64,000 nt of DNA. Source: Flavobacteriaceae bacterium MAR_2010_188. GTDB taxonomy: Bacteria; Bacteroidota; Bacteroidia; Flavobacteriales; Flavobacteriaceae. A program made the translations under genes and the position numbers. Positions 45,895 to 57,078 of this stretch are shown here, in pieces (positions within the stretch are counted from its first letter, which is position 1; every line of letters begins with the position of its first letter). The stretch spans positions 2,320,001-2,384,000 of the forward strand of contig LT629302.1 in NCBI GenBank assembly GCA_900104375.1, read 5' to 3'. Under the pieces are notes generated by a model. The model was given only the letters and a program-made list of their open reading frames with translations, was not told the origin of the DNA and ran no database searches.

Positions 45895-45898
45895 AATT

Positions 45899-45933
45899 AG
45901 TTTTTGGTTTTTAGTTTTCAGTTGTTAGTGGTT
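45899..45933. repeat. 7-base tandem array at the paaI-paaJ junction
   Basis: There are five units in phase: agttttt, ggttttt, agttttc, agttgtt, agtggtt. The array begins four bases before the paaJ start codon (minus strand) and fills much of the 77-base gap to paaI. Confidence 0.75.
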
Positions 45934-45971: not shown

Positions 45972-46388
45972 TTAATCGATCTCCCAATCCTTTGATGTTC
46001 GATAGACTACACCTTTAAAAAGTGCAACTAATTCATTCCCTCTTTTAACTTCCACAATATTAAAACCAAGTTTATTATTGACCTTTTCTATAACAGATTC
46101 GGCCTCTAAATAATCGCCTTCGTTTAAAGCTTCAATATGATTGATACTCGTTTCAATAGAAACCGCGTATTTACCATGAGTGTTGGCACAAAAACCAAAA
46201 GCAGTATCCGCTAATGAATAGCTGATTCCGCCATGGGCTTTGTTCATACTATTCAACATTTCTTTTCTAACGGTTAGACCCACTTTACATCTACCCAATT
46301 GACATTCTAAAATCTCAATTCCCAGCCATTGACTAAAGGGATCTTGCGATAGCATTTTTTCAGGGATGAGGCTTCCTTTTAAAGGCAT
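45972..46388 (-). CDS. paaI: PaaI hotdog-fold acyl-CoA thioesterase
   Basis: The protein has 138 residues, single hotdog domain: HGGISYSLADTAFGFCANT gives H52-G54 and catalytic D61. PaaI releases CoA from stalled phenylacetate-pathway CoA esters. The start ATG (46388) lies inside the last 7-base repeat unit (taatgcc on the coding strand) of the inserted four-helix-bundle cassette, so the cassette supplies or replaced the start region. Confidence 0.9.
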   Translation of the reverse strand: MPLKGSLIPEKMLSQDPFSQWLGIEILECQLGRCKVGLTVRKEMLNSMNKAHGGISYSLADTAFGFCANTHGKYAVSIETSINHIEALNEGDYLEAESVIEKVNNKLGFNIVEVKRGNELVALFKGVVYRTSKDWEID

Positions 46389-46811
46389 TAGGTATTTGGG
46401 ATTAGGGATTAGTTTTTTCTTTTCTCTCTAAAATTTTCTTTCTTAGAGAAGATAGCATTTTTGTTAATTCTGAAATCAGTTTTCTGTTTTCTTCATCTTC
46501 TTCAAAAGTAATATATAACCTTCTTTTGCCTTTTGTACTGCAACTTACACATTCATTTGCGCTATATATTGCGTAATTTAAATGCTTAACGAATTGTGCA
46601 TCTGAACCAGGATTGCCCTCTGCAATATTTAAAGCTATTGAATCCGCAGCTCTTCGGAACTGCGAGGACAAAGCATATAATTCATAAGCCGGAAACTTTT
46701 TAACAAAACCATCAACTACTTCACCAAAATCTATGGCTTTTTGATACACCTGTAAATCTTCAAATTTAAAATGATAGCTACTATCCATACTAATGCCTAA
46801 TGCCTAATGCC
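46384..46811. mobile_element. Four-helix-bundle cassette 1 with inverted 7-base repeat arrays
   Basis: The left array (46384-46413) reads inward ggcatta, ggtattt, gggatta, gggatta, gt. The right array (complement of 46811-46789) reads inward ggcatta, ggcatta, ggcatta, gt. The two are therefore terminal inverted arrays in the same phase. Between them is one gene (46402-46788). The left array contains the end of that gene and the paaI ATG; the right abuts the paaH stop codon. No target duplication is visible. Mobility is inferred, not shown. Confidence 0.65.
46402..46788 (-). CDS. Four-helix-bundle protein (23S rRNA intervening-sequence protein family)
   Basis: The protein has 128 residues. 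FKFEDLQVYQKAIDFGEVVDGF, FRRAADSIALNIAEG and FVKHLNYAIYSANE are the family marks (PF05635, TIGR02436). It is predicted to be wholly helical. Homologues occur inside 23S rRNA intervening sequences in Leptospira and Coxiella, and the Avd protein of diversity-generating retroelements is a structural relative. No function is established for free-standing copies. Its last codons (ACT AAT CCC TAA) are formed by the repeat array. It sits between paaH and paaI and shares no metabolic logic with them. Confidence 0.92.
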   Translation of the reverse strand: MDSSYHFKFEDLQVYQKAIDFGEVVDGFVKKFPAYELYALSSQFRRAADSIALNIAEGNPGSDAQFVKHLNYAIYSANECVSCSTKGKRRLYITFEEDEENRKLISELTKMLSSLRKKILERKEKTNP

Positions 46812-48026
46812 CTATTTGAAAAACCTACTACCACTATTAAGCATACTCCTCAATAGCGGACTACAGCGATATCGATCTTCTCGATAGGTTTCATATAATG
46901 AATCTATTGTATTAACACACCAATCAATTCCTTTTTCATTTGCCCAAGCCAATAGACCTTTTGGATAATTAACCCCTTTGGTCATGGCATTGTCGATATC
47001 TTCTGCCGAGGCGATATTCCAAAATAGAGCATCGGCTGCTTCATTAATCAACATTACAAGGATTCTATTGAAAATTTCTGTTTTTAGTTCTGGTCCGGCA
47101 TTCATTGCACTTCTTACCACGATTTTACCAGCTTCATCATAGTCATAATAACCTTTTCCGGATTTTCTTCCAAGGTAACCGGCTTCTGCAAATCTTTTTT
47201 GGGTAAAGGAGGGCCTATATCTGGGGTCGTAGTAGAAGGCTTCAAATACAGTTTCGGTAACCGTATAGTTAATGTCGTTCCCAATAAAATCCATCAATTC
47301 AAAAGGTCCCATTTTAAATCCGCCCAAATCCCGCATACTCATATCGATAGTCTCAATATCTGCAATCCCTTCCTCATAGATCCGTAAAGACTCACCATAA
47401 AAAGGACGCGCCACTCTATTGACGATAAATCCTGGTGTATCCTTGGCCACCGCCACGGTCTTGCCCCAACTTTTAATTGTTTCAATAACAGCATCTAAAA
47501 CTACTTCCGAAGTCTGTATGGCCGGAATCACTTCAACCAGCTTCATTAAAGGTGCTGGATTAAAAAAATGTATCCCTAAACACCGTGCTGGTCTATTTAG
47601 ACTTGCTGCAATTGAGGCAATTGAGAGACTAGATGTATTAGAAGCAATGATACACTTATCAGAAACTATATTTTCTAAATCTGAAAAGACTTTTTGCTTA
47701 ATATCAAGGTTTTCGATTATGGCTTCAATGATTAAATCCGAATTCTTTAAGGCAGTTAAATGTTCAGAATATTCAATATTTCCTTGAATCCGGTTCTTTT
47801 CATTTTCATCGATTCTTCCTTTCTCAATTAATCGTAACAGAACCTTTTCCAAATTTGCTTTAGACATTCCTAGAGCAGCATTATTGGTATCAAAAACCAG
47901 AACTTTACAGTCCGCAGTAGCCGCAACTTGCGCAATGCCACTGCCCATAGTTCCTGCTCCAATTACTCCAACAAATTGGATTGTTGATTGCTGATTTTTG
48001 ATCGTTGATTGTTGATTTTCTGTCAT
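46812..48026 (-). CDS. paaH: 3-hydroxyacyl-CoA dehydrogenase
   Basis: The protein has 404 residues. Rossmann NAD site GVIGAGTMGSGIAQVA begins near residue 19, later than usual. HFFNPAPLMKLVEVI holds the catalytic His, and DTPGFIVNRVARPFY follows. It oxidises 3-hydroxyadipyl-CoA to 3-oxoadipyl-CoA. The first 17 residues (MTENQQSTIKNQQSTIQ) are coded by a 42-base array of six 7-base units (47979-48020), so the N-terminus has been extended by repeat expansion; a TIQ-proximal internal start is not available as ATG. Confidence 0.93.
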   Translation of the reverse strand: MTENQQSTIKNQQSTIQFVGVIGAGTMGSGIAQVAATADCKVLVFDTNNAALGMSKANLEKVLLRLIEKGRIDENEKNRIQGNIEYSEHLTALKNSDLIIEAIIENLDIKQKVFSDLENIVSDKCIIASNTSSLSIASIAASLNRPARCLGIHFFNPAPLMKLVEVIPAIQTSEVVLDAVIETIKSWGKTVAVAKDTPGFIVNRVARPFYGESLRIYEEGIADIETIDMSMRDLGGFKMGPFELMDFIGNDINYTVTETVFEAFYYDPRYRPSFTQKRFAEAGYLGRKSGKGYYDYDEAGKIVVRSAMNAGPELKTEIFNRILVMLINEAADALFWNIASAEDIDNAMTKGVNYPKGLLAWANEKGIDWCVNTIDSLYETYREDRYRCSPLLRSMLNSGSRFFK

Positions 48027-48062
48027 TTAATCCTTAAAAGTCTTGGTTCTTGGTTCTGGTTT
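47979..48062. repeat. Two 7-base tandem arrays at the paaH start and the dehydratase end
   Basis: Array A (47979-48020): gattgtt, gattgct, gattttt, gatcgtt, gattgtt, gattttc, read as the N-terminal codons of paaH on the other strand. Array B (48042-48062): cttggtt, cttggtt, ctggttt, abutting the stop codon of the upstream dehydratase gene (48063-48065). The words differ between arrays but the period is seven in both. Confidence 0.8.
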
Positions 48063-50339: not shown

Positions 50340-51092
50340 TTACCATTCCATATTTGGATAGGTGCGCTGCATATATTGTAAATCGTTTAAAAGGTAACCC
50401 ATATGTTCGGTATGAATCCCTTCTTTTCCTCCCTTTTGAAAATATTTTGATTCGGGAATTCTTATAGTTGCTTCTTCTAGTATTGAATTTACCTCAGAAT
50501 AGTAAGATTCCTTTAATTTTGAAACATCCACCCCAATTCCTTCTTCAACCATTCTCATTTCATTTTCGGTCAATAGGAAAAGCTCATTGGTATAAGGCCA
50601 TAAATCATTAATCGCCTTTTGCATTCGTTGATGGCTTTCGTCGGTACCGTCTCCCAATCTCTTTACCCAATCGGAAGAAAATCTTTTATGATAGGTAACT
50701 TCCTTTAATGATTTTGTCGCAATTGCTGAAAGTTTCATATCATGGCTCTTTTCTAATTCTTTCAAAAATGGCAAGTGGTAAGAATCAAATAAAAATTGTT
50801 TTCCGATGGTAAACGCGAAATCATTATTAGGCTGTTCAACCAATAGAACGTTTACATATTCTCGTTCAGTTCGAAGCATTGCAATATCGTCTTCGGTCCT
50901 ACCATCTGCCATCAATTTGGCAGCATACTGATAATAATTACGAACCTGGCCCAATAAGTCAAGTGAGATATTTGTGCATGCAATGTCGGTTTCCAGATTG
51001 GGACCATGACCGCATAATTCGCCAAGACGCTGGCCTAAGATTAAACTGTTGTCTGCGATTCCGAGGATGTAATTGTATAAGTTTTTATTCAT
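50340..51092 (-). CDS. paaC: Phenylacetyl-CoA epoxidase subunit PaaC
   Basis: The protein has 250 residues, all-helical ferritin-like protein: DNSLILGQRLGELCGHGPNLETDIA near the start, LLGQVRNYYQYAA, TYHKRFSSDWVKRLGDGT, and HTEHMGYLLNDLQYMQRTYP at the C-terminus. PaaC is the structural partner of the catalytic PaaA. The upstream gap to paaB is filled by four-helix-bundle cassette 2. The gap downstream to paaD holds a small palindrome (ttcctgccttcgcagaaat). Confidence 0.95.
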   Translation of the reverse strand: MNKNLYNYILGIADNSLILGQRLGELCGHGPNLETDIACTNISLDLLGQVRNYYQYAAKLMADGRTEDDIAMLRTEREYVNVLLVEQPNNDFAFTIGKQFLFDSYHLPFLKELEKSHDMKLSAIATKSLKEVTYHKRFSSDWVKRLGDGTDESHQRMQKAINDLWPYTNELFLLTENEMRMVEEGIGVDVSKLKESYYSEVNSILEEATIRIPESKYFQKGGKEGIHTEHMGYLLNDLQYMQRTYPNMEW

Positions 51093-51107
51093 TTTTTAAT
51101 ACTATAA

Positions 51108-51529
51108 CTTGAAGTTGAAGTTGAAGTTGAATTTATTTAGAGTTTTTCAACATCGTTACAACTATTCTAATTAATTGGTCGATTTCGTTCTTTAATTCAC
51201 TCAAATTAGTTTTAGGAAATAATCCTGCCTTACTTTGAATGTTAAGATTTCTTTCGCACTCTCTCAGCTCTTTCAAGCATATTCTTAATTTATTTATTTT
51301 ATCTTTTGAAGTACCAGCTCCTAATACTTCTCCATAATTTAAAGCGGAAGAACATGATGAACGGATAAGTTGCTTTGCTAGATAATCGCCGGAATAAGAC
51401 TCAGGTCTTTTATCGTATAACATTATAATATTTGCGGCAAAACTTTCTAACCTGTCGCTTAAATCGTATCTCGCTTCACTCATTCTTTATAAGTACTGTC
51501 AACTTCATCAAATTCAACTTCAACTTCAA
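51108..51529. mobile_element. Four-helix-bundle cassette 2 with inverted 6-base repeat arrays
   Basis: The left array (51108-51134) reads inward cttgaa, gttgaa, gttgaa, gttgaa, ttt. The right array on the complement (51529-51510) ends in the same inward 20 bases, giving a perfect inverted repeat of 51115-51134 with 51510-51529. One gene (51133-51483) lies inside. The element exactly fills the paaB-paaC junction: the right arm is seven bases from the paaB stop. It has the same build as cassette 1 with different repeat words and a 6-base period. No target duplication is seen. Confidence 0.65.
51133..51483 (-). CDS. Four-helix-bundle protein (second, diverged copy)
   Basis: The protein has 116 residues, helical: YDLSDRLESFAANIIMLYDK, LAKQLIRSSCSSALNYGEV, INKLRICLKELRECERNL and a final ELKNEIDQLIRIVVTMLKNSK. 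It is the family of IVS-type four-helix-bundle proteins (PF05635/TIGR02436) but of a clearly different subgroup from the copy at 46402-46788. It interrupts the paaABCDE epoxidase genes between paaB and paaC. The stop codon lies in the left repeat array. Confidence 0.88.
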   Translation of the reverse strand: MSEARYDLSDRLESFAANIIMLYDKRPESYSGDYLAKQLIRSSCSSALNYGEVLGAGTSKDKINKLRICLKELRECERNLNIQSKAGLFPKTNLSELKNEIDQLIRIVVTMLKNSK

Positions 51530-51536
51530 ATTCGTC

Positions 51537-51821
51537 CTACATATGCTTCACCTCATCGGGCAATTCATAAAAAGTAGGATGTCTATAAACTTTATCCTGT
51601 GCTGGCTCAAACATTTCGCCATTGTGTTCAGGGTTCGAAGCCGTGATGTGTTTGGATTCTACCACCCAAATACTTACTCCCTCATTTCTTCTGGTGTAAA
51701 CATCCCGTGCATTTTCCATTGCCATTTCTGCATCTGCAGCATGCAGACTTCCAAAATGTCTATGTTCCAGTCCGTTTTTGCTTCTTACGAAGACTTCCCA
51801 AAGTGGCCAGTTTTTTTTCAT
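51537..51821 (-). CDS. paaB: Phenylacetyl-CoA epoxidase subunit PaaB
   Basis: The protein has 94 residues from ATG 51821 (MKKNWPLWEVFVRSKNGLEH), the normal PaaB length and start. GSLHAADAEMAMENARDVYTRR and the VVESKHITAS block are characteristic. The reading frame stays open to 51980 through an inserted repeat (51828-51890), but that extension is not PaaB. PaaB bridges the PaaAC dimers. Confidence 0.95.
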   Translation of the reverse strand: MKKNWPLWEVFVRSKNGLEHRHFGSLHAADAEMAMENARDVYTRRNEGVSIWVVESKHITASNPEHNGEMFEPAQDKVYRHPTFYELPDEVKHM

Positions 51822-51827
51822 CTTGTG

Positions 51828-51890
51828 CCCGCGAAGGCGGGTATTTTTTAAATTGATTCTATTTGTGAGATGCTGAAACAAGTTCAGCAT
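51828..51890. repeat. Palindromic repeats between paaA and paaB
   Basis: There are two hairpins: cccgc-gaag-gcggg (51828-51841), and atgctgaa-acaag-ttcagcat (51870-51890). On the coding strand the second reads through as VMLNLFQHLT in frame with paaB, a familiar signature of dispersed repeats of this type. They separate paaA from paaB by 89 bases. Confidence 0.7.
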
Positions 51891-51910
51891 GACATTACAG
51901 TTTAAGCCTT

Positions 51911-56978: not shown

Positions 56979-56992
56979 TTGGATGCTGGTAA

Positions 56993-57065
56993 GTTGTTAG
57001 TTGTTAGGGAAACAAAACCAGGGAAGTCCAACAAGTGTTTGTTCTTTGTTCTTTGTTCTTTGTTC
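56993..57065. repeat. Two 7-base arrays between the aminotransferase and gldC genes
   Basis: gttgtta occurs twice at 56993-57006, and tttgttc occurs four times, perfectly, at 57038-57065. They occupy the 100-base gap between two convergent genes. The words are unrelated to each other but the period is the same. Confidence 0.85.
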
Positions 57066-57078
57066 TCTGAAACAAAAT

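Follow-up and report, generated by a model that had tools for sequence, protein, structure and literature searches.

Intervening sequences (IVSs) with an S23p open reading frame (ORF) are found in 23S rRNA of Leptospira and others as well as of Coxiella burnetii. The Coxiella IVS measures 428 nt, with an S23p ORF and a 28-bp stem; tandem GACAGAT heptamers lie ahead of the ORF, and RNase III cuts at the first of these repeats (PMC4990558). S23 proteins are pentamers (PMC4990558, citing Lin 2006), the function of S23p is described as not known, and the Coxiella S23p is apparently not expressed (PMC4990558). For array-flanked S23 genes outside rRNA, we found no description in the open-access literature, subscription papers falling mostly outside the scope of this search.

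The gene described here belongs to the same protein family and lies between paaB and paaC in a stretch of 64,000 nucleotides (the window). It and its relatives resemble the Coxiella IVS in several respects: a gene of this family sits in the loop, in sense orientation and with tandem heptamers beside the ORF; the length is about 430–480 nt and the terminal inverted repeats measure about 20–30 bp; and in GACAGAT, too, AG recurs with a period of 7 nt on the 5′ arm. However, the elements here are hosted by polycistronic mRNA, at a junction and not in a 23S helix, there are many copies per genome, and the words vary by lineage, the paaB–paaC element in the window being hexameric. Furthermore, the protein is under purifying selection here, whereas that of Coxiella seems not to be expressed, and RNase III cutting is a proposal here. 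Since the paaB–paaC cassette lies between two protein genes and not inside a 23S helix, the location that defines the class, it is not a 23S rRNA IVS, though it probably works like one.

Anatomy of the paaB–paaC element

The features of the element and of related arrays in the window are collected in Table 1.

Table 1. Positions in the window of the paaB–paaC element, its host genes and related cassette features.
Feature	Position	Strand	Details
S23 / 23S rRNA IVP family (four-helix bundle) gene	51133..51483	-	116 aa, pI 9.0
paaB, upstream host gene	51537..51824	-	PF06243, E 2.7e-44; start set at MKKNWPLWE
paaC, downstream host gene	50340..51092	-	PF05138, E 1.2e-92
5′ arm, sense GAATTTGAAGTTGAAGTTGAATTT	51508..51533	-	about 4 hexamers; first base 3 nt past the paaB stop
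3′ arm, sense AAATTCAACTTCAACTTCAACTTC	51106..51134	-	inverted array; ends just ahead of the paaC start
Cassette 1 gene, of this family; neighbours paaH and a PaaI-type thioesterase gene	46402..46788	-	PF05635, E 4.6e-25
Cassette 1 5′ arm, GGCATTA x3	46789..46811	-	tandem repeats and junction comparison
Cassette 1 3′ arm, ACCTAATGCC...	46383..46401	-	overlaps the beginning of the gene that follows
Candidate 3′-arm scar of a lost third cassette	47979..48019	-	array word GATTGTTGATTGCTGATTTTT; codes PaaH N-terminus NQQSTIKNQQSTI

The product of the gene belongs to the S23/IVP protein family, with matches to PF05635 (E 1.7e-12, 47.9 bits at a curated cut-off of 33.8) and TIGR02436 (E 2.1e-20, 72.9 bits at a curated cut-off of 24). 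An AF2 monomer model has a pLDDT of 90, and its best fold matches are 2rld (B. thetaiotaomicron BT_0352, Z 16.9) and 2gsc (X. campestris XCC0516, Z 16.4), against 12–13 for unrelated bundles. Both share the fold over the whole chain, and their function is unreported.

A reading from the sequence alone (the sequence-only reading) had described this gene as flanked by a perfect 20-base inverted repeat of hexamers, and this is confirmed: the perfect repeat is exactly 20 bp long (51115–51134 with 51510–51529) and, once extended, the arms match over 24 nt at 96%. The hexamers are GAAGTT / TTGAAG, which TRF returns as TTGAAG x3.8 plus the inverse array. At spacings up to 600, no perfect inverted repeat in the window is as long as this one: its nearest unrelated rival reaches 14, and ten Markov resamples gave 12–16. 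The arm score is 43, as compared to a median of 18 with flanks swapped among family members, a procedure that retains their repetitive make-up. On the sense strand, the gene is an in-loop S23p ORF with a possible stem of at least 20 bp, and the arms pair with each other in the predicted RNA MFE fold of the insert (z -3.2), in a repetitive stretch whose register is not unique. Rfam covariance models gave no match above gathering score between 44000 and 58500.

The window harbors a further cassette of the family, cassette 1. The earlier view that the two are independent holds up: their words are unrelated (GAAGTT and GGCATTA) and, while both proteins match PF05635, BLASTP finds no significant similarity between them (22% over 63 aa, E 9.4). 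The array at the PaaH N-terminus is a probable 3′-arm scar of a lost third cassette that has turned coding, because that place upstream of paaH is occupied in genome G014 by a complete element (L102) whose word is identical. In the same operon of G014, the paaB–paaC junction carries a gene-less inverted heptamer hairpin (L111) with the word of L102.

Gene-less single heptamer arrays are also present in intergenic positions of the window (45897–45929, 48041–48061 and 56992–57066; words TTAGTTT, TCTTGGT, AGTTGTT and TTTGTTC). We considered the arrays at 45897, 48041, 56992 and 57038 as hidden inverted pairs and rejected this, as by eye a complementary partner is absent. Between paaA and paaB, positions 51828–51900 hold a repeat similar to the REP-like repeat tgtcatcctgaacttgtttcaggatctcat, and this repeat and similar ones fill the same intercistronic gaps in L104, L115, L119, L121 and other loci without the cassette. 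REP or MITE-type palindromes of Bacteroidota intergenic gaps occupy the same junctions and are apparently hairpin-capable but, unlike the S23 elements, they have a fixed sequence, no gene and no tandem words.

Arms and words across the family

The genome has 13 S23/IVP family hits, including the paaB–paaC gene, and PF05635 was found in 232 of 296 Bacteroidota genomes sampled, many of which carry 5–15 copies. We scored inverted arms around 111 family members from this genome and its relatives and around 107 control ORFs. With a threshold of at least 26, arms were found for 76% of the members; the corresponding figures were 4% with swapped flanks and 2% for the control ORFs, and the median best match between upstream and downstream flank was 31 versus 18 after swapping. 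About a quarter of family members have no clear arms. In a phylum-wide sample of 30 loci, 53% reached the threshold, versus 5%. These results support the view that gene and inverted arrays form a unit, one that recurs for most of the family members tested.

The units are tightly packed into operons. Where both neighbours were scored, 87 of 92 members are co-directional with both; the arms start at a median of 4 nt past the upstream stop and end at a median of 11 nt ahead of the next ATG, and the median insert length is about 480 nt. In RNA MFE folds, 26 bases of the family flanks pair, compared to 10 after swapping. Two individual loci may be mentioned: L005 / L007 (G000:C1:3462064-3462784) is a tandem pair of family genes with GCTACTG-type arrays common to both, and L013 (G000:C1:3046588) is a decayed copy with internal stops and arms that are still recognisable.

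Across the family, the dominant word unit is 7 nt (302 votes, versus 73 for shuffled sequence), and its core is polar, with AG on the 5′ arm and CT on the 3′ arm. Among 103 non-redundant members, 42 have AG repeated every 7 nt on the 5′ arm and 5 have CT, while on the 3′ arm CT is so spaced in 34 and AG in 5. By eye, the paaB–paaC element of the window belongs to a subfamily with GAANNY hexamers. The word otherwise varies between lineages. Members that are at least 60% identical and sit at different loci have a word similarity of 0.60, versus about 0.22–0.25, most of these pairs being drawn from the GAANNY subfamily. Gene and word class travel together, because an element in the greA–HIT junction of Dokdonia sinensis, whose protein is about 80% identical to several paaB–paaC members, has the same GAANNN word; among its relatives, the family gene is present at this site in 0/29. 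We also considered that the word might derive from the target site, which is unsupported, since empty paaB–paaC and greA–HIT sites lack it.

The two arms change together. Among paaB–paaC orthologues, arms score 39.0 with their own partner and 32.7 +/- 1.1 with permuted partners (0/5000 permutations), a result to which kinship among the orthologues contributes. In Nonlabens the words are wholly changed (AAAATC; AAATTT/AAATC; AAAATR), and the arms are matched in each orthologue. The cassette-1 junction, compared across 30 relatives, likewise favours own arms, more weakly (78/5040 permutations). The sequence-only reading had proposed a system of a bundle gene plus inverted arrays with interchangeable words. 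The recurrent unit, with repeats around other members of the family, is borne out, whereas the words are not freely interchangeable: they track the lineage of the gene, also where the loci differ, drift with the arms matched and retain the polar AG/CT core family-wide.

Gain, loss and conversion of the cassette

An identical insert in all relatives, which would have spoken against the earlier proposal, was not seen when the paaB–paaC junction was compared across species. Presence is patchy: the orthologous gene occupies 11 of 71 Flavobacteriaceae-level junctions, and 2 of the 11 are damaged. One junction (L106) shows an apparent fusion of both arms with the gene missing, in two others (L113 and L141) what remains is the right arm together with the 3′ end of the gene, and in further junctions the gap is absent altogether or occupied by a REP-like repeat. 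A scan of the genome collection added carriers in Gelidibacter, Winogradskyella, Psychroserpens, Mangrovimonas, Nonlabens and others.

On the paaC tree, at least 19 presence changes are needed, hardly below the 22.5 obtained with shuffled labels, and strict vertical inheritance as the sole story is therefore rejected. Loss of the cassette is frequent, and repeated gain or replacement is likely from these comparisons, also because two close relatives have PaaC proteins that are 93% identical and cassette proteins that are only 65% identical. Without Nonlabens, the correlation between bundle protein and PaaC is r 0.40, below the largest permuted value of 0.58. The median dN/dS of the cassette protein is 0.07, which indicates purifying selection. 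The insertion at paaB–paaC is old and partly vertical, with many losses, and is no fresh arrival.

Bizionia paragorgiae carries copies both between paaA and paaB and between paaB and paaC (L123 / L175), whose genes are 95% identical and whose arms differ, the identity lying chiefly downstream of about codon 13, up to the stop. Recent transposition was considered for this pair and set aside, since identity limited to the gene and differing arms fit gene conversion better. Gene conversion within the gene is probable from these sequences, and the differing arms appear to be a sign of fast arm evolution.

A proposed intervening element in messenger RNA and its alternatives

We lean, with some confidence, towards a mobile or once-mobile intervening-sequence element in polycistronic mRNA, with arms that would form an RNase III-type stem, because protein, size, stem, sense orientation and heptamers match the Coxiella IVS. 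Its unit would be one S23/IVP gene with two inverted arms of short tandem words, placed on the sense strand between the stop codon and the next start codon of operon genes. In the transcript, the arms would pair into a stem of about 20–30 bp and displace the IVP gene into the loop, as in the 23S rRNA IVS. RNase III would then cut the stem, which would separate the flanking messages and release that of the IVP. The protein is kept by selection; it probably binds the RNA of its own element, as is suggested by its basic character and its kinship both to S23 proteins, which are pentameric, and to the DGR protein Avd. The patchy presence and the occurrence of one word class at unrelated loci are observed, and how copies move is an inference. 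What counts against this reading is the missing G-U excess discussed below, the quarter of members without arms, the seemingly unexpressed S23p of Coxiella and the repetitive register of the stem.

The polar, spaced AG core suggests what the protein might read. In a more far-reaching version, which is tentative and which we regard as rather doubtful, a ring-shaped S23/IVP protein would read AG or GAA, spaced every 6–7 nt, on its own 5′ arm and so govern whether the stem forms, its own release and how both flanking genes are expressed. The elements would then be phylum-wide mRNA elements in which the other letters of the word may drift if both arms drift jointly.

Alternatively, the unit may be a cis-regulatory module, in which the pentameric IVP would bind the spaced AG (or GAA) words of the 5′ arm in a TRAP-like manner and set stem versus open form, thereby regulating both its own synthesis and how the next gene is translated. 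The conserved period of 7 and the mirrored polarity of the two arms fit such binding, though ancestral-word inheritance could yield an identical polarity. Arms that abut the downstream ATG, a pI of 8.9, the pentamers formed by S23 proteins and the work of the fold relative Avd in an RNP (8ub7) all agree with this proposal, which we nonetheless consider unlikely, as many relatives have the operon without the element.

Just as unlikely, in our estimate, is an element acting at the level of DNA, with arms that are terminal inverted repeats or cruciform-forming ends, that match via template switching or conversion during replication, and with a sense orientation that is the residue of selection. 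On the sense strand, G-U and A-C arm mismatches number 113 versus 147 (29 versus 32 among orthologues). Selection for RNA pairing predicts an excess of G-U, such that its absence counts against an RNA-level constraint, and DNA-level copying may therefore maintain the likeness of the arms. The recurrence of gene and word class at unrelated loci and the fused-arm remnant without a gene (L106) point the same way. However, the unit has no transposase gene and no conserved end sequence, and near-identical copies with conserved ends were not found; the genome's own paralogues at separate loci are at most 59% identical, and their element ends differ. No target-site duplication was seen by eye at the paaB–paaC and greA–HIT sites, where the boundaries are repetitive. 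The near-total co-orientation with both neighbours and the polar AG/CT core likewise argue against a DNA-level element, and there is no evidence that the paaB–paaC unit is a standard transposon.

An ordinary old insertion, in which a gene that is selfish or neutral has settled in operon gaps that tolerate it, with slippage-prone junk for arms and no mechanism, agrees with the gene-less heptamer arrays of the window and with the patchy presence and many losses. We judge it quite improbable, because slippage alone does not match inverted arms 350–400 nt apart, control genes are almost without matched pairs, the swap tests disfavour it, and the words of orthologues change on both sides together.

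That the gene encodes a DGR accessory protein (Avd) is scarcely credible, as the four-helix bundle is shared with this part of an RNA–protein machine (4dwl Z 12.7, 8ub7 Z 13.0) but at 9–10% identity and with no neighbouring reverse transcriptase (RT), and the cassette is not part of a DGR, because the genome has a single RT match, which lies in a protein with a seemingly protease-like N-terminal part and at a distance of about 99 kb from the closest member of the family. This lone RT domain (L273, G000:C1:2016193) belongs to a 797-aa protein, apparently trypsin-like/protease-like in its N-terminal part, beside an MBL-fold-like gene; judged by eye, the two are possibly a defence system.

To return to the intervening element in messenger RNA, S23-type elements are known from ribosomal RNA, and what appears to be new is a putative hairpin element with a gene of this family in messenger RNAs. 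Its arms are an unusual case in which two arrays that are hundreds of bases apart change their words jointly. The gene for the 'four helix bundle protein' is very common in Bacteroidota and unexplained. If hairpin elements in messenger operons carry S23 genes as their cargo, this gives the family a context and a testable function, the cutting or regulating of polycistronic RNA; the orthologous junctions, dozens of them, some occupied and others empty, would in that case lend themselves to a natural succession of experiments.
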